Positions 440-10,106 of a stretch of DNA of 64,000 nt are shown here, one piece after another. The notes beneath the pieces are model-generated. The model saw only the letters and a program-made list of their open reading frames with translations. It did not search any database and was not told where the DNA came from. Positions within the stretch are counted from its first letter, which is position 1. Each line of letters begins with the position of its first letter. Made by a program: the position numbers and the translations under genes. The stretch lies in contig CANJII010000009.1 in assembly GCA_947474435.1 (NCBI GenBank), positions 1 to 64,000 of the forward strand, in the 5' to 3' direction. The stretch comes from Chitinophagaceae bacterium (lineage in GTDB: Bacteria; Bacteroidota; Bacteroidia; Chitinophagales; UBA10324).

Positions 440-769
440 CTAGCCGTTTTCCTTACCTGTTGTGTCGTTTATATTATTAGTAAACAGGTTTGTAAGATTG
501 AAAATCATTACGCGCTGGTCTGCAAGTTCATCCGTTATAGTTGATATGCTTTCATCATGCAGATTCTGGGTATGAACAATAATGTTTTGCATTTGCGATT
601 TTTGTATTTGTCTGAGAATTGAAATGGTTACAAGTGCTCCAACAATAACGATGGTACCTGTTATCACGACCGATTGCCAATCAAGCTGTCCCGGAGGAGG
701 TGGCGCACCGATATTTTGGGTTCCAAATAATTCGTCGATGTTACTGGTTCTAAATTTTGCATTTGTCAT
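440..769 (-). CDS. Small single-pass membrane protein of unknown function (integrated element)
   Basis: The product is 109 aa and I do not recognise its family. A proline-rich segment (GAPPPPGQ, residues about 21-28) is followed by one strong membrane helix (about 33-52, VVITGTIVIVGALVTISIL). A polar C-terminal half with helical character follows. The start codon overlaps the stop of the upstream zinc-finger-like gene by 4 nt (ATGA), so the two are probably translationally coupled. It is the last gene of a minus-strand row that begins at the recombinase. Confidence 0.55.
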   Translation of the reverse strand: MTNAKFRTSNIDELFGTQNIGAPPPPGQLDWQSVVITGTIVIVGALVTISILRQIQKSQMQNIIVHTQNLHDESISTITDELADQRVMIFNLTNLFTNNINDTTGKENG

Positions 770-1197
770 TGGCTTTCTTTTTTATGTATGATGAAATGTT
801 CTTTACTTGTTGGGTGGATTTCTATTCCAAATTCGTAATACCACTTTACCTGTTGTCCGGTTTGGGTATTTGTTTGTTGCTCGACAGATAAACTCAAATC
901 AATTTCCTCGTGTTTGAAGATTAACAGAGGTACCACGCAGTAATTGTTAGAAACATATTTGGTGTAAAGCCTGCCGAGTATAGAATCATAAATCCGAAGT
1001 TGTTTTTCAGGAAGAAATTTTGTTCGATTCTTTTCCCGACGGATGTCATTGTTGGCTTCTACACCACAAGGCGGACAGCACCAAACCTGGCGCGCGTCAT
1101 GTGGTATGAAGAATTTGCCATGTCCGCATTTTAGGTTTTTACAAACCTGTTGCGGATAGTTTCTTTGGGATCTGAAGATGTAAGTGCATGTAGCCAT
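766..1197 (-). CDS. Unknown protein with an N-terminal Cys-rich (zinc-ribbon-like) motif
   Basis: The product is 143 aa with no family I can name. Residues about 19-44 carry CKNLKC, then WCCPPCG, spaced like a treble-clef or zinc-ribbon knuckle (Cx4C and CxxC). This arrangement also occurs in CGNR-type zinc fingers, but the match is only in cysteine spacing and a following basic helix. The rest is mixed alpha/beta with no motif. It overlaps the next gene by 4 nt and sits 24 bp after the small membrane gene at 1222-1419. The conserved cysteines suggest nucleic-acid or metal binding (inference). Confidence 0.55.
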   Translation of the reverse strand: MATCTYIFRSQRNYPQQVCKNLKCGHGKFFIPHDARQVWCCPPCGVEANNDIRREKNRTKFLPEKQLRIYDSILGRLYTKYVSNNYCVVPLLIFKHEEIDLSLSVEQQTNTQTGQQVKWYYEFGIEIHPTSKEHFIIHKKESQ

Positions 1198-1221
1198 GAA
1201 TTTGTGATTTAACTGTTACAC

Positions 1222-1419
1222 TTACATCAGAATCGCCCGATTCATGTTTTTATACTGATAGATAGTGCCCGCAGCAATTCTGAATACAATACCTGCCAGG
1301 TATAGAACTGTCAGTGCTCCGGCTACAATCAGAATAACTTTAATGACCGGATCTTTTGAAAGATTTAAAATGGTTTCTTTGATAACGCTTTCATTTTGTG
1401 TGTTGGTTGTGTTTTCCAT
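1222..1419 (-). CDS. 65-aa single-pass membrane protein, unknown
   Basis: A polar N-terminal 25 residues (MENTTNTQNESVIKE) precede one membrane helix at about 28-50 (VIKVILIVAGALTVLYLAGIVF). A short basic tail follows. It has no recognisable family. It lies between the helix-turn-helix gene and the zinc-finger-like gene, all in one direction with gaps of about 20 bp, so it is likely part of the same transcript. Confidence 0.5.
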   Translation of the reverse strand: MENTTNTQNESVIKETILNLSKDPVIKVILIVAGALTVLYLAGIVFRIAAGTIYQYKNMNRAILM

Positions 1420-1438
1420 GATTTTTGTTTTTTAATTT

Positions 1439-1759
1439 TTATGATTTTTTAAAACTGTGTTGATTGTGTTTTTGCTCCAGAGATTTTTCAATTTCGCTTC
1501 TCTTATAAAATGATCGCCCCCCCTTATAATGACGCTTGATTTCACCTGCGTTGACCCAGTTATGTATGGTCTTCTTGGTGACCTTGAAATATTCTGCAAC
1601 GGCATCGATCTTTAAAAGCTCTTCGGCTATAGTAGCAGCCACTGGCTTTTTATTACCTTCAAACAGTGACAATTTCCTATCGATAACCTTATCGAGCAGT
1701 AATTCAAATTCCTCAGTGGAAAGTTGAAAAATGAATTTTTTTTCGGATGGATATTCCAT
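1439..1759 (-). CDS. Helix-turn-helix protein, excisionase-like
   Basis: The product is 106 aa from the ATG at 1759; an in-frame ATG at 1798 would add 13 residues. The C-terminal half contains an excisionase/MerR-type winged helix: KIDAVAEYFKVTKKTIHNW for the helix-turn-helix, then the wing GGRSFYKRSEIEKSL. Small proteins of this kind next to a tyrosine recombinase usually direct excision or regulate the element (family knowledge). A set of inverted ATGTC half-sites lies just upstream (1813-1854) and could be its operator. Confidence 0.7.
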   Translation of the reverse strand: MEYPSEKKFIFQLSTEEFELLLDKVIDRKLSLFEGNKKPVAATIAEELLKIDAVAEYFKVTKKTIHNWVNAGEIKRHYKGGRSFYKRSEIEKSLEQKHNQHSFKKS

Positions 1760-1812
1760 TCCACAAAAATCTGTGCTCTTATTATTTCTCAGAAGCAAAA
1801 AGTGATAAAAAC

Positions 1813-1854
1813 ATGTCTGTCATGTCTTATTCAGGACATAAAAAGACAAGACAT
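1813..1854. promoter_or_regulatory. Candidate operator of inverted ATGTC half-sites
   Basis: Four pentamers are arranged as ATGTC (1813), ATGTC (1822), GACAT (1835) and GACAT (1850). This gives two facing pairs in the 57-bp gap upstream of the helix-turn-helix gene. The symmetric layout suits a dimeric regulator. No binding data are available. Confidence 0.35.
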
Positions 1855-1855
1855 A

Positions 1856-2683
1856 CTACATATTAGTACATAAGGCGATAAATTCCATATGAAATTTCGT
1901 GTGAGGCTTAAGTCTTCTGTTTTGCTTTTTCTCCTGAAAATCCTGTAAGATAGATTCAGCTGATGCTTCATATTTCGTTTTGTTTTTTTCAAAATGAAAG
2001 GAAGAATGAATGGCTTCTGCTATATCTTTTTTCAACCAACTTATCTTACGATAATAGTGAAGTAAATAAAAAAGAGTAGTGAGTATATTTTTATTTTCTT
2101 TCCAGGTAATTAATCCTGAAATTTTTCCGGTTTTTAAAAAGTTACTAAATGACTCTTTAAAAAAGTCGTCAATGAACTTATTATCAAAAACTACTTTAAT
2201 AATATTTTGAATTAGTACTTCATCAGAAATTAAGATATCAGGCTTTGGTTCAATGCCAGGCGTCGGGGCAGATTTTGCATTATCAATTTTCTTAGGAGCA
2301 TTATTGACATAAATTTCATGCTTCAGTCTTTCGCTATAAAATTTTTTCTGCTTGATGATAAATTCATCCATAACTACCTGGTAGGATTCAGCAGTAAGTG
2401 TTTCCTTCTTTATTCTCGCGCTGGTTATTAAATCCAAAAACTTCTTTTCTTCATTAAAAAGGAAATCAATTTTTGCATTCGTATTTTCAATTTGATTAAG
2501 TTTTAAATTCAGATCATTTACTGTTTTATCTCTCAATTCAATATGGGCTTGCCTGTTTTTAACAGCCATGCCTGTAAATTCCCACATAGCACGATTCACA
2601 TCTTTAATCCATATTTTAGTATTTGCATGCTGATCTTCATCCAAATTGAAATTAGTTTTAGATGACTCGTTTTGGTTTTCCAT
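1856..2683 (-). CDS. Unknown protein beside the recombinase, weakly RteC-like at its C-terminus
   Basis: The product is 275 aa and soluble, with a probable coiled-coil stretch at about 45-120 rich in K, E, N and L. The C-terminal 100 residues read SGLITWKENKNILTTLFYLLHYY and continue to an EAIHSSFHF segment. This layout (a short IxW strand, a helix, then an I..SF helix) recalls the C-terminus of RteC-type excision regulators of Bacteroides conjugative transposons. The resemblance is by eye only. The gene starts 10 bp after the recombinase stop, which argues for cotranscription and a role in the element's mobility or control. Confidence 0.6.
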   Translation of the reverse strand: MENQNESSKTNFNLDEDQHANTKIWIKDVNRAMWEFTGMAVKNRQAHIELRDKTVNDLNLKLNQIENTNAKIDFLFNEEKKFLDLITSARIKKETLTAESYQVVMDEFIIKQKKFYSERLKHEIYVNNAPKKIDNAKSAPTPGIEPKPDILISDEVLIQNIIKVVFDNKFIDDFFKESFSNFLKTGKISGLITWKENKNILTTLFYLLHYYRKISWLKKDIAEAIHSSFHFEKNKTKYEASAESILQDFQEKKQNRRLKPHTKFHMEFIALCTNM

Positions 2684-2693
2684 ATTGAATGAA

Positions 2694-4025
2694 TTATTTG
2701 AAATAAGGATGCTTCGAAAGTTTATTGGCGGTTTCTTCTTTTGTCAGACGAATGTACTTCATGAAACTGCTTTCCTTTTTATGCCCCGATATTTTCATGA
2801 TGTCTATGGGTTGTATATCTGCCAGGTACATGTTGGTGATTCCGCTGCGGCGGGCCGTATGCGTTTTGATCAGTTCATATTTAGGAACCGTCTCCCGCAA
2901 TTTTTTTCCGCCCTTTATTTTTTCAATTTCCACTAGTTCAGTGAGACCCACTTTTTTTGCAATCAGTTTTATTGATTCATTTAATTTTCCTTCCGCAACA
3001 GCAGGAGGAGCGTAGTTGTATTTTTTCAACAGCTTTTCCAATTCGGTGTTGATGGGAATCATCACCTGCTCACCGGTTTTTTTCTGTATGATTTTTATGA
3101 CTCTTGTTCCCGATGATGTTTTGGTAATGTTGACCGGTTTGATGTCATTGTAATCAGAAACACGCTGTGCTAAGTGACAGCCGATTAAAAAAATATCCCT
3201 GTGCAAATCCCATTCAGGGTTATCTGAGCAATCATAATTTTGAAGTGCCTCCAACTCGTTCTGGTGTAAATAAATACTTTCAGTATTAATCTGTGTCACT
3301 TTGAATGCACTTTTCATGAAATCTCTTGTCTGGTGCAATCCTTCTTCATCGGCACTGCGCATGATTTTTTTTAATCTCGCTATATGCTTCCCGATCGTAT
3401 TGGGTGAATAATCTTTTATTGTCAGATACCGGACGAATGCAAAATAAAAATCCATCGTGATGTCATCGAAATTTAATGAGACATTTTTTTCTTGCTGGTA
3501 TAAATCAAACTGAGCTTTGAATGTTTTGTAATTCTTAATGGAGCCGTGCATAAACACTTTTCCACCAGCAGTGAGCCGTTCGGATTTTTCCAGTTGCGCA
3601 ATATAATTTTTGATGTAGGCATTCAGGTCAACAGGTGTTACTGTTTCTGTTACTGTTTCTGTAACCAGTTGGTTTTTCTGCAGTTTATTATCCAGTTCTG
3701 TTTTAAAATCAGCGGCATTCAGCAACAGGTGATTGATTTGAAAATGGTTGATGACCTGATCAGCTGCAACCTGAATGGCATTTATAGCAGAATCGATTCG
3801 CTTCAGTGTTCTCACTTCCTCCTTACTTAAACCTTTCAGAAGGACAGCGTCTTTTACCGGACGACCAGCTACGGGATCAAAATATATCGGAGCAATTTTT
3901 TCTCCTGTTCCGTAGACCAACCGTCCTTCCTTTCCAAAACATTTATGAAAAATGATCAGGCGGATTGATGAAGGCTTGGTTGCTTCTGAAGAAGATTTTA
4001 ACCGGAAAGAAAATTTTAAATCCAT
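2694..4025 (-). CDS. Tyrosine recombinase / integrase
   Basis: The product is 443 aa, the usual size of Bacteroidota element integrases. An N-terminal arm-binding region (about 1-115) precedes a SAM-like core-binding domain (about 130-235) and a catalytic domain (about 250-435). The catalytic set is visible: R288 in CHLAQRVSDY, H389 and R392 in KTHTARRSG, H415 in ISGHK and Y424 in FMKYIRLT. The protein cuts and rejoins DNA at attachment sites through a covalent 3'-phosphotyrosine. It is the first gene of the leftward row and sits at the right border of the element, the usual place next to an att site. All catalytic residues are present, so it is probably functional. Confidence 0.93.
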   Translation of the reverse strand: MDLKFSFRLKSSSEATKPSSIRLIIFHKCFGKEGRLVYGTGEKIAPIYFDPVAGRPVKDAVLLKGLSKEEVRTLKRIDSAINAIQVAADQVINHFQINHLLLNAADFKTELDNKLQKNQLVTETVTETVTPVDLNAYIKNYIAQLEKSERLTAGGKVFMHGSIKNYKTFKAQFDLYQQEKNVSLNFDDITMDFYFAFVRYLTIKDYSPNTIGKHIARLKKIMRSADEEGLHQTRDFMKSAFKVTQINTESIYLHQNELEALQNYDCSDNPEWDLHRDIFLIGCHLAQRVSDYNDIKPVNITKTSSGTRVIKIIQKKTGEQVMIPINTELEKLLKKYNYAPPAVAEGKLNESIKLIAKKVGLTELVEIEKIKGGKKLRETVPKYELIKTHTARRSGITNMYLADIQPIDIMKISGHKKESSFMKYIRLTKEETANKLSKHPYFK

Positions 4026-4210: not shown

Positions 4211-4287
4211 GTGATTTAAAGGTTCGCTTCCGACCTCTGGTAAAATCCTCAAAACCTCCGATAATTTCTTCGGGGGTTTTGTTTTTT
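4211..4287 (+). terminator. Rho-independent terminator behind a tRNA-3'-end-like stretch (possible element border)
   Basis: At 4251-4287 an 11-bp stem (AAAACCTCCGA with TCGGGGGTTTT, one G-U pair) with an 8-nt loop is followed by a T6 run. Just before it, at 4221-4242, the text GGTTCGCTTCCGACCTCTGG looks like a T-arm and acceptor 3' strand. The matching 5' strands are absent and T-loop position 58 is C, not A. This is what a duplicated tRNA 3' end plus native terminator would look like at the attR of an element. That part is inference. The rest of the 4026-4355 gap shows nothing else apart from the tandem repeat at 4075-4096. Confidence 0.5.
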
Positions 4288-4355: not shown

Positions 4356-4811
4356 TCAGGGCAAAACTGTTATCGGCGGAGTAGTTAAAATAGTACTGTA
4401 ATGATTTGCACGATCGCGAATCTGAATTTCGAATACAGCACTTTCAGAAGTAGAAGAATTATTTTGAAGAATGGTATTGTTCAACACAACGGGAAGATTT
4501 CCTTTTATAGAAATAGTTGTATTCAACGGACTGAGTGGTTGCAAGTGAAATGCAATGGTGAGTGGAAATCTTTTATCAGTAATAAAAACTGACATTGAAT
4601 CAGCATCGGAAAAACCTAAATCACCATCGCCATCGGTATATGAAATTGTAAATACAATTGAATCCTGTAATGCGTGAACAGTAGTTGGAGTTACACTTAC
4701 TAATTCAATAACAGGAGTGGTGCTCGCCTTCGGAATCGGATCGTTGCTTTTATCTTTTTTGCAGGAAGAAAAAATTAGTAATAAAATAAATAGCAACCGT
4801 CCTGACTTCAT
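4356..4811 (-). CDS. Small secreted lipoprotein, unknown function
   Basis: The product is 151 aa from the ATG at 4811. A longer frame extends to 4892, but the residues it adds would precede a typical signal peptide, so the internal start is preferred. The signal peptide MKSGRLLFILLLIFSSCKK puts the lipidated cysteine at position 17. The mature part resembles one Ig-like or cadherin-like beta-sandwich (text TISYTDGDGDLGFSDADS near its start). It is the last gene of the minus-strand lipoprotein cluster that begins at 8861. A binding or scaffold role at the cell surface is inference. Confidence 0.65.
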   Translation of the reverse strand: MKSGRLLFILLLIFSSCKKDKSNDPIPKASTTPVIELVSVTPTTVHALQDSIVFTISYTDGDGDLGFSDADSMSVFITDKRFPLTIAFHLQPLSPLNTTISIKGNLPVVLNNTILQNNSSTSESAVFEIQIRDRANHYSTILTTPPITVLP

Positions 4812-4819
4812 CGGGATAA

Positions 4820-4842
4820 ACTCTGGCGCAGAGGCGCAAAGA
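4820..4842. repeat. 8-nt-period degenerate repeat (GCGCAGAG/GCGCAAAG type)
   Basis: Two octamers, GCGCAGAG and GCGCAAAG, run head to tail just upstream of the lipoprotein start. Related octamers occur at 27406-27468, 31505-31545 and 52723-52746. Confidence 0.4.
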
Positions 4843-4929
4843 ATTTTCTTTAACAAATAAATTATTTTTTCAATTTTCATTTTCAAAAACATTAAGTAAA
4901 AAACTCTTTCAAAATCATTAAATTGTATT

Positions 4930-4964
4930 TACAAATAACATATAACATTAAACAAATAACTTTT
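4930..4964. repeat. 7-nt-period degenerate array, AACnnnn type, first copy
   Basis: Successive heptamers TACAAAT, AACATAT, AACATTA, AACAAAT and AACTTTT run in phase just past the 3' end of the cytochrome-like gene. The region 4925-4963 is repeated with a few mismatches at 52785-52823, almost 48 kb away. Confidence 0.55.
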
Positions 4965-4966
4965 TA

Positions 4967-5914
4967 CTATTGAACTTTGAATGAACAAAACAATTGAAAA
5001 TAAATTGGTGCTGTGCCTGATGGAATTTCTGTAGGTGATGTATGTTGCCCATCCTGAACATATGCGCGTATGTAAACAATGTCACCAATATTCCACTGCC
5101 CTGTATTAATAGTGTAATGCAAAAAGTATGGAGCAGGCCCCCATCCCCATCCGGGCGCATAAAACGGATTGATTTCAACAGTCATTGGAAGAGGAGGCGC
5201 ATTTGCAAAATCATTTGGGTTGGTACTGAATTTAATTTTGTTGTAAGTGAAGAATGGAGGAAGCGTTATATCATCATACAATCCCATCCATATTTCAACA
5301 TCAGAATTTGCAGGAGCATAAAACGGAAAGTACGATGCTGCTCCTCTGATAGAATCAATCCGCTGATTACCGCTGTTCGGCAAGTAAGCAACCAAACCAA
5401 AAAATGCAGGTTCGGTATTCGCCTGATTCATTTCATTACCGAAAATATCTTTTGCACCGGAGTTAATCCAATTGGTAATCATTTTAATTTGTGATTTCGG
5501 AAGTGTATCGTACAACGGCATTCGGCCCAATACCGCATCATCAGTTGTAATCCGTTCGTGCAACCAGCTCAATGTTGTATCATCCGGCACCACGCGATAA
5601 GTAAAAGTTGAATCAACATTATTTTTTTTAACCGGAGCAAACACCAAGGTGTAATATGAACTCTGTACGGTTCTGAAATCGGGTTCAAAATTTCCATCAT
5701 GACAACCGGGTACCGCACACTTCACGCTGATAATGTATTTATGAATTCCAAGAAATGAATTGGAATCAATTGGAACATCCGGAATTCCGGTGTTATCGTA
5801 ATTAATAGTATCGTACGGATTTTCTCCAATGGTTCCCTGCAATGTGGTAATAGTTTTCTTGCAAGAAAAAATTATTACAACACAACCAATAAGAACCAGA
5901 ATTTTTTTAATCAT
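4967..5914 (-). CDS. Lipoprotein with a cytochrome-c-like heme motif
   Basis: The product is 315 aa. The signal peptide ends in a lipobox with the lipidated cysteine at position 18 (IFSCKK). Residues 66-72 read CAVPGCH, a CX4CH variant of the heme c site like that of Planctomycete-type PSCyt1 domains. A later RMPLYDTLPKSQIKMITNWI segment gives the methionine (about 132) and the final W-I helix usual in class I cytochrome c. The C-terminal half (about 165-315) is a separate beta-rich domain I cannot assign. It follows the Tat-exported phosphatase-fold gene with a 76-bp gap. Electron transfer is possible but unproven, and the extra residue between the cysteines leaves heme attachment uncertain. 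Confidence 0.7.
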   Translation of the reverse strand: MIKKILVLIGCVVIIFSCKKTITTLQGTIGENPYDTINYDNTGIPDVPIDSNSFLGIHKYIISVKCAVPGCHDGNFEPDFRTVQSSYYTLVFAPVKKNNVDSTFTYRVVPDDTTLSWLHERITTDDAVLGRMPLYDTLPKSQIKMITNWINSGAKDIFGNEMNQANTEPAFFGLVAYLPNSGNQRIDSIRGAASYFPFYAPANSDVEIWMGLYDDITLPPFFTYNKIKFSTNPNDFANAPPLPMTVEINPFYAPGWGWGPAPYFLHYTINTGQWNIGDIVYIRAYVQDGQHTSPTEIPSGTAPIYFQLFCSFKVQ

Positions 5915-5990
5915 ATTCTTTTCTTTCTGTTTTCAATTTAATTTTTTAAAAAATATTTATTGAACAAAATTTTTTATTAAAAATTTTCTT

Positions 5991-7322
5991 CTAAACAAAT
6001 GCCTGTGTCAAAACCTGCCCCGGCAGCATACCGGCAGGAATCTGATCTTTAAATCCAAGTATGTGAGCAATGGTGGGAACAATGTCTATTGTTTGACCAA
6101 CCGGATTTCCGGCGCTACCTAAAACTAAATTCTGATTCACTTTAGCAGCTGGGCCAACCACCAACGCAAATACACGGCGCGAATTTGCATCTGATGTGTG
6201 ATCAAAAGCGCGCAAGCCATTTGCATCATAAACATTATTCGGTAAATCATTCCGGCCATGATCGGGCATGCAAATCATAATCGTATCATCATGCAAAACC
6301 GGATCACTTTGAATTTTATCCCACAACCATCCAACACCATAATCTGCTTTGTGCATGAGTTTTATATAGCCGGTAAAATCAGAATGACAGGTATCTAAAT
6401 TAAAAGTATTGATGACTGTTAATTCAGGATGAAAATTTTTCAAAACTTCCCATGCATATTGAATATTGATTAAGTCGCCGGTCATTTCATAGGTAGGCAC
6501 ACCATTGGGTAATGGAAATTCAACAGTTCCGTTTTGTGTTCTGTTCAATACATCTTTCATGAACGCATGAATGGTTTCTCTGTCGGTAGAATTATTTATT
6601 ATACCCGGAAGATCAGAGGCAGATTTATCAAAGTTGCTGTCGAAGAAATTTTTAATGGTATTCATTCTTCCAACATCATCGGGTTGAAGTGTGAGTCCGT
6701 TGTTTAAATAATCCAAACCAATTTGTCCGAAAGTTGAATAAGGTCTGAAATAATTTGCGCCATACATTGGACCGTACATTCCGTGCTTGCTGTAATTCAG
6801 TGCCGGATAGGGGCCTAAGCCCTCACTCATCCACCATGCATTGATTGCACTTTTTGCAGGATCATTGTGTCGGCGATAATATTCGAACACTGTAGGAAAA
6901 TCAGGATTGATGGCGAGGTTGGTTCCTACATCTGTATAATTTCCGGTAATTGCAGCTGTGTGTCCGTTGTAATGCCCTGTTGGACCTTGTGCATATTCCA
7001 ACTCTTTAAAAAATGTTCCTTGCGATGCTAATGATGAACTCTGAATCGGATTCCATGGTGTGTAAAGTAAATTGCTGCCAGGTGCTGCACCTGTAAACAT
7101 ATTTTGCATCACATTTCCTGCATTCGCCCCCTGATATGATAAGTAAGCCTGCTCAACAGATTCCTGATGTCGAACTCCACCTGCAAACAATACCAACACC
7201 ACATGATTTACTACCCTGTCACCGGCAGCAGCAAACAATCTTCCGCTTGGTAAAATGTAGGGAGCGAAAAATGTTCCGGCTGTTGCTATGCCTGCTTTTT
7301 TTATAAATGATCTTCGTTTCAT
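5991..7322 (-). CDS. Tat-exported alkaline-phosphatase/sulfatase-fold protein (DUF1501-like)
   Basis: The product is 443 aa. The N-terminus MKRRSFIKKAGIATAGTFFA is a twin-arginine signal, so the protein is exported folded, possibly with metals bound. The body has features of the alkaline-phosphatase superfamily: FNLDTCHSDFTGY (D310, H313), MICMPDHGRN (D354, H355), a DH pair at 374-375, and the closing strand TIDIVPTIAHILGF. The first strand reads VVLVLFAGGVRHQESVE. Its glycine pair recalls DUF1501, but an Asp metal ligand is not obvious there, so the active site may be altered. Neighbouring lipoproteins resemble parts of Planctomycete DUF1549/DUF1501/cytochrome modules. The substrate is unknown. 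Confidence 0.75.
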   Translation of the reverse strand: MKRRSFIKKAGIATAGTFFAPYILPSGRLFAAAGDRVVNHVVLVLFAGGVRHQESVEQAYLSYQGANAGNVMQNMFTGAAPGSNLLYTPWNPIQSSSLASQGTFFKELEYAQGPTGHYNGHTAAITGNYTDVGTNLAINPDFPTVFEYYRRHNDPAKSAINAWWMSEGLGPYPALNYSKHGMYGPMYGANYFRPYSTFGQIGLDYLNNGLTLQPDDVGRMNTIKNFFDSNFDKSASDLPGIINNSTDRETIHAFMKDVLNRTQNGTVEFPLPNGVPTYEMTGDLINIQYAWEVLKNFHPELTVINTFNLDTCHSDFTGYIKLMHKADYGVGWLWDKIQSDPVLHDDTIMICMPDHGRNDLPNNVYDANGLRAFDHTSDANSRRVFALVVGPAAKVNQNLVLGSAGNPVGQTIDIVPTIAHILGFKDQIPAGMLPGQVLTQAFV

Positions 7323-7338
7323 TTTATTTTATTTTTTT

Positions 7339-7375
7339 AACCTCATCCCTAACCCCTCTCTCAAGGAGAGGGGAA
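7339..7375. repeat. CCCCTCTC palindromic repeat, intergenic copy
   Basis: After a leader CCTCATCCCTAA comes CCCCTCTC, then TCAAG, then GAGAGGGG (an 8-bp stem). It lies in the gap between two cluster genes. Related copies are at 34590-34624 (inside the DNA polymerase gene) and 32831-32865 (inside the M28 gene). Confidence 0.6.
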
Positions 7376-7390
7376 AGAGATAAAATATTT

Positions 7391-7897
7391 TTAGTAAAAC
7401 ATGTATTCGTTAGAAAGTGCGAATGCCGCATACACAATTTCAGGAGTGATGTTGCTATCGTTCTGAATCAGGTTTTTCAAATAAATTTTTTCGTACTCGG
7501 TTGGGTTGCGTAAATAAAACCGTTGATAGGCTGAAGTGATAAAAGTATTTAAGTCAGCGTTCATTTGTGTTTGTGTTGGAATAGAAATTCCCGGAAGCGT
7601 GAGTAAACGCTCCAAAATCATTTGGTTGGCTAAACCCTTATCTCCAATACTCAGAATGGCTTCACCAATATTATTCAAATCAGAACCCGGAATATTCTGA
7701 TTGAACAAATCAGAAAATAAAATGCTGATGTATTGCAAACTGCTCTTCTGTTTATTTTTTTCAGCGTTGCTGGTGTAAAGAGTAACCGGTGTTACTTCAT
7801 AATACACATTGTCGTAAACATTTTGTTTCAGCACTTCTTTCTTACACGAAGAAAAAATGGTGGCTGAAAAAAAGACAAGAAGAAAAATATTTTTCAT
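7391..7897 (-). CDS. Lipoprotein with a C-terminal RNPTEYE helix, unknown
   Basis: The product is 168 aa. The signal peptide MKNIFLLVFFSATIFSSCKK has its lipobox cysteine at 18. The C-terminal part reads FYLRNPTEYEKIYLKNLI and ends LSNEYMFY. The neighbour at 7953-8861 has the same pattern: YLLRNPTSGEMGLETQAL, ending SKDEYAGF. The two genes are probably related, this one keeping only the end module. The pattern resembles the DUF1549/DUF1553 or DUF4214 type of 'R.PT..E' helical module. It lies between that neighbour and the Tat phosphatase-fold gene, with gaps under 70 bp. Confidence 0.65.
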   Translation of the reverse strand: MKNIFLLVFFSATIFSSCKKEVLKQNVYDNVYYEVTPVTLYTSNAEKNKQKSSLQYISILFSDLFNQNIPGSDLNNIGEAILSIGDKGLANQMILERLLTLPGISIPTQTQMNADLNTFITSAYQRFYLRNPTEYEKIYLKNLIQNDSNITPEIVYAAFALSNEYMFY

Positions 7898-7921
7898 TTT
7901 TTAATTTACTTTTTAAGTGAC

Positions 7922-7956
7922 TATTCACAATTGACCATTCACAATTCACCAATTAA
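7922..7956. repeat. 7-nt-period degenerate array, ATTCAC type
   Basis: Heptamers TATTCAC, AATTGAC, CATTCAC, AATTCAC and CAATTAA run in phase and reach the stop codon of the gene at 7953-8861. Confidence 0.5.
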
Positions 7957-8861
7957 AATCCTGCATACTCATCCTTGCTCACTAAATTTTTAATCATTGT
8001 TTTCCAATCAAGCGACACATTCAATGCTTGTGTTTCCAATCCCATTTCACCACTCGTTGGGTTTCGTAATAAATACTGCCGATAACATTTTCTTATAAAC
8101 CCTTCAGTAAATTCAGGTGAGTTCACCATAATCAATTCGTAATCTCCCTTGCTCGTTCCGCTTTGGTCAAACAAGGTTGTGGATGCACCATCAACCATCG
8201 AACCTGCATATTGTAATTCAGATGTTGTTGGAGCGCGTAAATACAAATCATCGAAACTTCCTTTCACAAAATTTTCAGTTCCCATATTCACCTGATCATA
8301 AAAATAATTATCAATGAACACACGATAAAATTCGCGGAGTGTGATTGTGTTGTTCATTAAATCAGACGCACAGGAATTTAATTTGTTGAACCGAAGCAGT
8401 TCGGCATAATAATATGGTAAGTTTTGTGTGAGCCCGTTTATAGAATCATAATAAATGAAATAATAATATTGAGTGATTTCGTCATTGATATCAACTGTAT
8501 CAATCCCGTTGGTCATATCGGCGCTTGTTAAATCAAACAGGCGATTATAAAAATCACTGTTGCCCAATAATTCATCAGCAATTATTCCTCTTGAAGAAAC
8601 ACTCAGGTTATTTATTTTTAAGAATGTAAATTGATCATTCAGTTCTTGTGATGAAGGTTGACGGCCAATCAAATCAACATACAATTTATTGATGTATAAT
8701 TTTATTTGTAATTCAGAAATGCCATTGTAGGGCGGTGGATTATTTCCGGTGATTGTGGTGTCAATATGATTGTCAATCAGCAACGGATCTTTCTTACACG
8801 AAGAAAAAAAGATGGCTGAACTTAAGGCGATAATGAAAGTGAGATAAAGTATCCGATGCAT
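7953..8861 (-). CDS. Lipoprotein with DUF1549-like repeat modules
   Basis: The product is 302 aa. The signal peptide ends FFSSCKK with the cysteine at 22. Near the N-terminus LYVDLIGRQPSSQELN matches by eye the start of DUF1549 ('LDLIGR.PT..E'). A middle copy reads DDLYLRAPTTSELQYA, and a third near the C-terminus reads YRQYLLRNPTSGEMGLE. So three 'hydrophobic-R-P-T/S-xx-E' helical modules run along the protein. It is the first gene of the minus-strand cluster. In Planctomycetes, DUF1549 proteins accompany cytochrome and DUF1501 proteins, and this cluster has counterparts of each. The biochemical role is not known for either group. Confidence 0.68.
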   Translation of the reverse strand: MHRILYLTFIIALSSAIFFSSCKKDPLLIDNHIDTTITGNNPPPYNGISELQIKLYINKLYVDLIGRQPSSQELNDQFTFLKINNLSVSSRGIIADELLGNSDFYNRLFDLTSADMTNGIDTVDINDEITQYYYFIYYDSINGLTQNLPYYYAELLRFNKLNSCASDLMNNTITLREFYRVFIDNYFYDQVNMGTENFVKGSFDDLYLRAPTTSELQYAGSMVDGASTTLFDQSGTSKGDYELIMVNSPEFTEGFIRKCYRQYLLRNPTSGEMGLETQALNVSLDWKTMIKNLVSKDEYAGF

Positions 8862-8928: not shown

Positions 8929-9363
8929 TTATTCTGATTGTTCAGGATTTAAAAAAGTGATTTCAGTTTGTTGAAGGTTTGTTGATTCATCAGTAACAAC
9001 AATTTTATTGTTATCTGTTCCTGCACTATCCAATTGAAATTTCATTTGATTGAGAAACGATTTTACATTTTCCAGTGAGTGAATAATTTTCATTCGCTCC
9101 TGCAGTTCATCACGGTTTTCACGCAACTTTATTTTTGCTCCTTCAATGGTGTAACCTCTCTCTTTAATCAGTTCTTTAATGATGCGGATATTTCCAATGT
9201 CTTTTTTAGTGAAGAAGCGATCGCCCTTCGCATTCTTCTTTGGCATCAGAATGTCGAATTCATTTTCCCAGTACCGCACATTCGATACATTCAAATCAAA
9301 CATGGCGGCTACTTCGCCAATGCTGTAATAAATTTTTTCGGGTTGTTTTTCTTCGTCCAACAT
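8929..9363 (-). CDS. MerR-family transcriptional regulator
   Basis: The product is 144 aa. The N-terminal winged helix reads YYSIGEVAAMFDLNVSNVRYWENEF, then the wing KNAKGDRFFTKKDIGNIRII. The second helix pair contains GYTIEGAKIKL. A coiled-coil dimerisation helix (about 85-115) follows. The short C-terminus has no cysteine effector site, so this is not a classical metal or redox sensor. This form is common in Bacteroidota as a single regulator; its target is not evident from the neighbours. Confidence 0.85.
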   Translation of the reverse strand: MLDEEKQPEKIYYSIGEVAAMFDLNVSNVRYWENEFDILMPKKNAKGDRFFTKKDIGNIRIIKELIKERGYTIEGAKIKLRENRDELQERMKIIHSLENVKSFLNQMKFQLDSAGTDNNKIVVTDESTNLQQTEITFLNPEQSE

Positions 9364-9491: not shown

Positions 9492-10106
9492 TTACTGCCA
9501 TGTAGCAGTACAACTATTGGTTACACTTGTAGTAGTATTCGTTATTGAATATGAAATCAAAATTTGATTATTTGATAAAGTGCCGTTTCCGGAAATAGTA
9601 TATACAATGGATCCGGAGGTTTGAGATTGTGATGGAATTGTAATTGTATTTCCGGTAATTGTTGCATTAACTGTTGCAAACTCATTCCAGAAATTTGCAA
9701 TGTTAACTGATTGGATGGTTGAACCATTGGAAATAATTACAGAAAAATTAGCGTTTCCGGCAACTGAACAACTCTGGTTAACACTCCATGTGTCAATAAA
9801 TTTTGCGCGTGTTTCGGTTTCACAATTCACACCTTCGTATCCAACTGTACAACTGCAAGTACCATCAACACAGGCGCCACCATTCTGACAAACAACATTT
9901 AAACAGGGGTCGGCATTGCCAACCGGTGTGGTACAAATGTCGCCTTCCCATCCTGATGCACACACGCAGGTTCCATTATCACAAGTGCCTCCATTCCAGC
10001 AAATGAAATTTTCACATGCATCTTTTTTACAGGAGGAATAAAAAAGTTGAATAGCTACAGCAACTAATAAAAGAAATGCGGCGCCAGTGATTGATATTTT
10101 TTTCAA
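9492..10106 (-). CDS. Lipoprotein with two EGF-like modules
   Basis: The product is 204 aa. The signal peptide ends LFYSSCKK (cysteine 26). Residues about 31-58 and 68-95 each carry six cysteines in EGF-like order: CWNGGTC with CVCASGWEGDIC, and CQNGGACVDGTC with CTVGYEGVNC. Each probably forms three disulphides. The remaining 100 residues are a Ser/Thr/Asn-rich beta domain ending SCTATWQ, with two cysteines that could pair. EGF-like tandems are common in animals and occur sporadically in Bacteroidota surface proteins. A binding role is inference. The gene stands alone between the MerR and PBP1A genes. Confidence 0.75.
   Translation of the reverse strand: MKKISITGAAFLLLVAVAIQLFYSSCKKDACENFICWNGGTCDNGTCVCASGWEGDICTTPVGNADPCLNVVCQNGGACVDGTCSCTVGYEGVNCETETRAKFIDTWSVNQSCSVAGNANFSVIISNGSTIQSVNIANFWNEFATVNATITGNTITIPSQSQTSGSIVYTISGNGTLSNNQILISYSITNTTTSVTNSCTATWQ

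Follow-up and report, generated by a model that had tools for sequence, protein, structure and literature searches.

Proteins of the DUF1501 family occur in many bacteria and have no established function. In Planctomycetes, Verrucomicrobia and some Bacteroidota they accompany a PSCyt1-DUF1549(PSCyt2)-DUF1553(PSD1) fusion, and in Bacteroidota and Proteobacteria they are paired with DUF1800. DUF1800/DUF1501 genes have been found in chitin synthase operons in some bacteria (PMC5122149), and PSCyt genes with carbohydrate-binding domains and sulfatase neighbours (PMC5615132); on the function of DUF1501, DUF1800, DUF1549 and DUF4214, the literature offers genomic context only. Here we describe a locus of five genes, A to E, all on the minus strand (8861-4356), in a window of 64,000 nucleotides, by which we mean the whole stretch of DNA analyzed (contig C9, positions 1-64000). 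The window comes from the 3.5-Mb genome (completeness 99.9%) of an aquatic Bacteroidota bacterium. An earlier note, made from the sequence alone, had likened the cluster to the Planctomycete module. We found that ABCDE is a real, conserved and apparently undescribed relative of the known DUF1501 systems and very probably a divergent DUF1501 system itself, and its interest lies in the lack of an established function for this widespread family.

The close spacing of the five genes and their division into four lipoproteins and one twin-arginine translocation (Tat) protein, as first described, were borne out by the open reading frames (ORFs), the lipoboxes (cysteines C22 in A, C18 in B, C18 in D and C44 in E) and the motif RRSFIKK. 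The listed start of E is probably 27 residues too early because homologues begin at the second Met, so that E would span 4356-4811. The complete order A-B-C-D-E was found co-oriented in 58 loci from ∼17 families of one order (Chitinophagales), with median intergenic gaps, from A to E, of -14, 17, 8 and -4 bases. Gene order is thus kept well beyond the genus, as the neighbour survey proposed in the earlier note revealed, and the flanking genes in the fetched neighbourhoods vary while A-B-C-D-E stays fixed. Moreover, when the five proteins are compared by their pairwise distances, the correlations are 0.73-0.87. These loci were picked via C and thus leave the frequency of A, B, D or E standing alone unmeasured. 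Five genes in this order form one conserved operon, a conclusion that we regard as practically beyond doubt.

The A protein was present in 11 of the 16 genomes of the window's family, and the C profile matched 78 of the 398 genomes of the order (44 of 165 genera). Across the phylum, the A profile matched only 2 of 296 genomes, namely that of the window and a second one from outside the order but within the same class, which has a full A-B-C-D-E-F set that includes a sixth gene, F, discussed below. A scan of GTDB species genomes returned 381 relatives of C; among the 80 listed, almost all were Bacteroidota metagenome genomes. One family (f16) has A-B-C without adjoining D-E; there, D was located elsewhere in 6/6 genomes tested, with E beside it in three. 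The retention of both halves after this split argues for a shared function.

Protein C, the Tat protein, was compared with DUF1501 by profile. Alignment of C with a pooled DUF1501 profile (hhalign) gave E 8.6e-10 (probability 96.5), with 163 columns aligned in the half that holds the active site, and the match to PSCyt-linked DUF1501 proteins fell into two collinear segments (E 1.2e-4 and 1.5e-4) with a score that 0 of 40 column-shuffled templates attained; 19 DUF1800-linked DUF1501 sequences were also collected for comparison. The single C sequence from the window reached no Pfam cut-off. Its relatives matched Sulfatase, Phosphodiest and Metalloenzyme, with DUF1501 in one of 22 members (E 0.069), and PF07394 (DUF1501) had no match in the window genome, whereas a canonical control scored 509 bits. 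The DUF1501 likeness noticed earlier in C therefore stands as profile homology and falls short of the Pfam threshold.

An AlphaFold2 model of C (predicted local distance difference test, pLDDT, 85) was assigned by Foldseek to the alkaline phosphatase superfamily (best E 3.1e-8), in agreement with the phosphatase/sulfatase fold first proposed by eye. The active-site signature of C is in register with that of DUF1501 (His at TG-9, D-x(1,2)-H, E-x-G-R and DH), and in the DUF1501 sequences inspected a His likewise lies 9 residues before [T/S]G, as does His117 of C. D310, H313, E/D354, H355 and D374-H375 are kept (73/73 homologues for D310/H313/D374-H375), and these positions may correspond to metal ligands of the superfamily, a mapping based on general features of the superfamily rather than on a superposition. 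With no strand-1 Asp and with His117 at the nucleophile position, C is unlikely to follow the conventional Ser/Thr/formylglycine mechanism, and the invariant His speaks against DUF1501 proteins being phosphatases or sulfatases of the ordinary kind. By profile and model, then, C is a remote DUF1501-type protein with a predicted alkaline-phosphatase fold and a remodelled active site.

We also examined the haem protein candidate, D. Profile alignment of its N-terminal half to the PSCyt1 region in canonical proteins gave E 2.6e-12 (probability 97.6), which upholds the suggested relationship, although a Pfam search with PSCyt1 (PF07635) left the window D unmatched and found only 2 of 20 relatives (best E 0.032). 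The CAVPGCH site at residues 66-72 and the WI at 149-150, seen in the first reading, are present, and C66, C71 and H72 of the CX4CH pattern, M132, P133, W149 and I150 are invariant in 66 sequences; D also has the terminal WI-x-x-GA of the PSCyt1 pattern, with residues invariant or nearly so. D is likely a PSCyt1-type mono-haem c lipoprotein with probable His/Met ligation, and there is a good chance, judging from these motifs, that it binds haem. The window genome encodes two Cytochrom_C_asm proteins (CcmF/CcmC-size); ResB is absent, and maturation of the ResB type was rejected. A second CX4CH protein in this genome, fused to a lactonase-like beta-propeller, does pass the Pfam PSCyt1 cut-off (L068, 5270-6736). 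A tandem origin of D and E was considered and rejected, as their profile match is mainly signal peptide.

The remaining lipoproteins with recognizable modules are A and B. The repeat modules of A detect each other by profile (hhalign E 6.9e-7) and match B (E 2.7e-11). Accordingly, the motifs of A that had been picked out by eye, LIGRQPSSQEL (64-74), RAPTTSEL (209-216) and RNPTSGEM (266-273), are present and are not due to chance, and the end module of B, RNPTEYEK (130-137), is present as quoted. C22, N192, M193, N197, E215, R266 and E272 are invariant in 70 A sequences. A DUF4214 search, also proposed earlier, described the two proteins best: DUF4214 (PF13946) matched 18/23 A members (best 8.2e-7) and 16/22 B members (best 2.3e-6), and the phycobilisome (PBS) linker family (PF00427) matched at best at 1.6e-7 among A/B members, the window's own A and B lying below the Pfam cut-offs for both. 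Solved phycobilisome linker structures were matched by A in sequence at E 3.4e-8, and a model of A (pLDDT 92) had Foldseek probabilities of ∼1.00 to the phycobilisome linker fold. On these matches and this model, A and B are predicted to consist of phycobilisome-linker/DUF4214-type modules.

The proposal that A and B carry DUF1549/DUF1553 fared less well. No match above the Pfam cut-off for these domains (PF07583, PF07587) was found in A or B (window A, E 0.13; B, 0.076), the best A relatives reached E 3.5e-4 and 0.0023, and the profile links of A itself were weak (E 0.0012 to DUF1549 and 0.015 to DUF1553). Residues ∼230-300 of A matched DUF1800 (PF08811) at E 3.8e-5 over 73 columns only, without a match to the full-length domain. 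None of 40 shuffled templates attained the score of A for DUF1800 or for its best DUF1549/DUF1553-protein match. Because A resembles DUF1549/DUF1553 weakly and DUF1800 better, filing it as DUF1549 is not justified.

Like the PSCyt1-DUF1549-DUF1553 systems, ABCDE combines a predicted PSCyt1-type haem domain with a Tat-signal DUF1501-type protein in one operon, and a weak likeness of module 1 of A to DUF1549 and of module 3 to the C terminus of DUF1553 runs in the same order. ABCDE differs in that the haem domain and the helical modules are split onto separate lipoproteins, in having no threshold-passing DUF1549/DUF1553 domain and in having one CX4CH motif where the canonical system has several CXXCH. 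With the DUF1800 + DUF1501 pair it shares the DUF1501-type partner and the partial match of A; A, however, is a short lipoprotein in which most of DUF1800 is missing, and a haem lipoprotein is added. A and B modules are alike in sequence and predicted fold to the phycobilisome linker (PF00427)/DUF4214 (PF13946) families but are bacterial lipoproteins with no phycobiliprotein context and with an N-M-[GN]-[ST]-x-N-F motif.

We next consider how these systems are distributed. PSCyt2 was found in 11 of 148 Bacteroidota genomes, with a DUF1501-type gene adjoining in nearly all loci read, so that a Bacteroidota host, once thought a special feature of this locus, is shared with the canonical set. DUF1800 was found in 47/118 genomes, usually adjoining a DUF1501-type gene; several of these DUF1501 proteins (L192-L203) have C-terminal extensions resembling sorting domains, which suggests that certain DUF1501 enzymes are secreted proteins in their own right. 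PSCyt2, DUF1800 (PF08811) and canonical DUF1501 were all absent from the window genome in profile searches. Ordinary DUF1501 is present in 334 of the 398 sampled genomes of the order, and it is missing from 38 of the 78 genomes with C compared with 26 of the 320 without C (Fisher p 4e-15, uncorrected for ancestry). That ABCDE replaced canonical DUF1501 in such genomes is a fair hypothesis. More tentatively, and with rather less than an even chance of being right, a single ancient envelope machine may exist in three architectures, ABCDE being the third. DUF1549-DUF1553, DUF1800 and A+B would each provide a phycobilisome-linker-like helical scaffold for a DUF1501 enzyme remodelled with His, a haem c subunit being present in some cases and lacking in others, and ABCDE would have replaced canonical DUF1501 in parts of Chitinophagales.

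Taken as a whole, our explanation is that the operon encodes an envelope complex and represents a divergent DUF1501 system, and we give it an even chance in its entirety. A and B would act as scaffolds that keep C and D assembled at the outer membrane, a role for which the odds appear balanced. C would bind one or two metal ions, and its substrate may be a polymer of the surface or periplasm that contains phosphate, sulfate or glycosyl groups; D would shuttle electrons to or from the reaction of C. Such redox-coupled action on a surface polymer is the doubtful part of the proposal. In the lineage that has F, the machinery might serve, or be displayed with, an F protein secreted by the type IX secretion system (T9SS). 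The operon is compact, and its haem domain, scaffold modules and enzyme are separate soluble or lipidated proteins, making it tractable for expression and for tests of which parts contact each other.

Several points weigh against this explanation. Covalent attachment of haem to D through CX4CH is a prediction from the motif, and D and E are unlinked from A-B-C in family f16. The Foldseek E-values of A are poor (best 0.068), which is not surprising for repeats that are short and helical. Ancestry confounds the replacement statistic, since genomes without DUF1501 are concentrated in whole families, and in another family (f18) only 2 of 16 C-positive genomes are without ordinary DUF1501. No glycan-active gene constantly neighbours the operon. 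Finally, no experimental function was found in the literature on DUF1501, DUF1800 and PSCyt systems, and thus none can be transferred to ABCDE.

The downstream gene F bears on a different role. In the tree of C, 32 sequences form a clade with full support, and 28 of them have F downstream, directly 3' of E in most of these loci and often with a 4-base overlap. F is a protein of ∼1160 residues with CUB, PKD and CHU_C T9SS sorting domains and is the sixth gene of the operon there (L058-L064, L132, L150-L171); operons with and without F co-occur within several genomes. This arrangement, together with the surface-lipoprotein features of D and E, would fit an operon whose task is to prepare, anchor or display a surface protein secreted by the T9SS, with A, B, D and E as an outer-membrane platform, F as its client and distant cargo in F-less genomes. 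Yet the window C lies on the F-less side of the tree and F is absent in 42/42 C sequences of its clade, so that F cannot be the core function, and in these genomes CHU_C proteins are encoded close to unrelated genes as well; we consider this role unlikely.

Somewhat less probable still is a respiratory or electron-transfer role. Here D would transfer electrons at the outer surface, with extracellular acceptors as one possible destination, and the function of C and of the linker proteins would be structural. PSCyt genes have been discussed with redox roles (PMC5615132, PMC2754498), the haem motif of D is invariant, and a PDB sequence search with D gave a weak match only, to the iron oxidoreductase FoxE (E 0.0083). 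On the other hand, D has a single haem motif and no quinone partner or multihaem protein is conserved in the operon, and C, with its conserved putative metal ligands, is the best conserved protein, which suggests catalysis. That this is simply a phosphatase/sulfatase operon of the ordinary kind, its lipoproteins unrelated and its Planctomycete likeness coincidental, as the Pfam matches of C might suggest, is very improbable given that C has neither a nucleophile Ser/Thr/Cys nor the first Asp and that C and D match two families, DUF1501 and PSCyt1, that are linked in Planctomycetes. A phage-defence reading was rejected, there being no PADLOC match. The five genes and their conserved sites are listed in Table 1.

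Table 1. Genes A to E and conserved sites within them, in window coordinates
Feature	Position	Strand	Remarks
Gene A	7953..8861	-	302-residue lipoprotein; three predicted helical linker-type modules, residues ~50-116, 175-223 and 238-302
NYFYDQVNMGTENF motif of A, residues 185-198	8268..8309	-	Top-conserved stretch of A; predicted loop joining two helices
Gene B	7391..7897	-	168-residue lipoprotein with a single predicted linker-type module
Gene C	5991..7322	-	443-residue Tat-signal protein; predicted member of the alkaline phosphatase superfamily, distantly related to DUF1501
Twin-arginine motif RRSFIKK of C, residues 3-9	7296..7316	-	Twin Arg in 65/73 homologues as called
GGVRHQES of C	7158..7181	-	Superfamily Asp after strand 1 missing; E54 invariant
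His117 of C	6972..6974	-	Occupies the Ser/Thr nucleophile position; invariant, 73/73
D310-x-x-H313 of C	6384..6395	-	Putative metal ligands; 73/73
DHGRN/EHGRN motif of C, residues 354-358	6249..6263	-	Corresponds to EFGR of DUF1501, DHG elsewhere in the superfamily
D374-H375 of C	6198..6203	-	73/73; corresponds to DHH/DHG of DUF1501
Gene D	4967..5914	-	315-residue lipoprotein; N-terminal PSCyt1-like mono-haem cytochrome c domain (predicted), C-terminal beta-rich-looking domain
CAVPGCH (CX4CH) motif of D, residues 66-72	5699..5719	-	Putative haem-attachment site; 66/66 D sequences
Met132-Pro133 of D	5516..5521	-	Candidate sixth haem ligand; 66/66
Gene E	4356..4892	-	Lipoprotein with DGDGDLG motif and Ig-like appearance; probable true start 4811 (~151 residues)

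The surroundings of the operon were also inspected. Adjoining E, window 440-4025 holds mobile-element-like genes. They include a tyrosine integrase at 2694-4025 and, at 1439-1798, an excisionase-like protein with a helix-turn-helix, and small ORFs occupy the end of the contig; between integrase and E lies a strong terminator-like hairpin (4250-4281; 12 pairs, T run on the plus strand). In five congeners purC directly follows E, a conserved neighbour at the genus level only; in the window genome it is on another contig (C1:38833-39888), and this displacement suggests that an insertion or rearrangement split the neighbourhood. On the other side, the end of a MerR-family regulator (8929-9363) lies 67 bases upstream of A, and congeners whose contig reaches there have the regulator in the same place; it could be a genus-level regulator or a mere neighbour. 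Farther upstream, a lipoprotein-like ORF at 9492-10106 with a TTG start carries two EGF-like domains (Pfam EGF_2, E 2e-8), which are unusual in bacteria.

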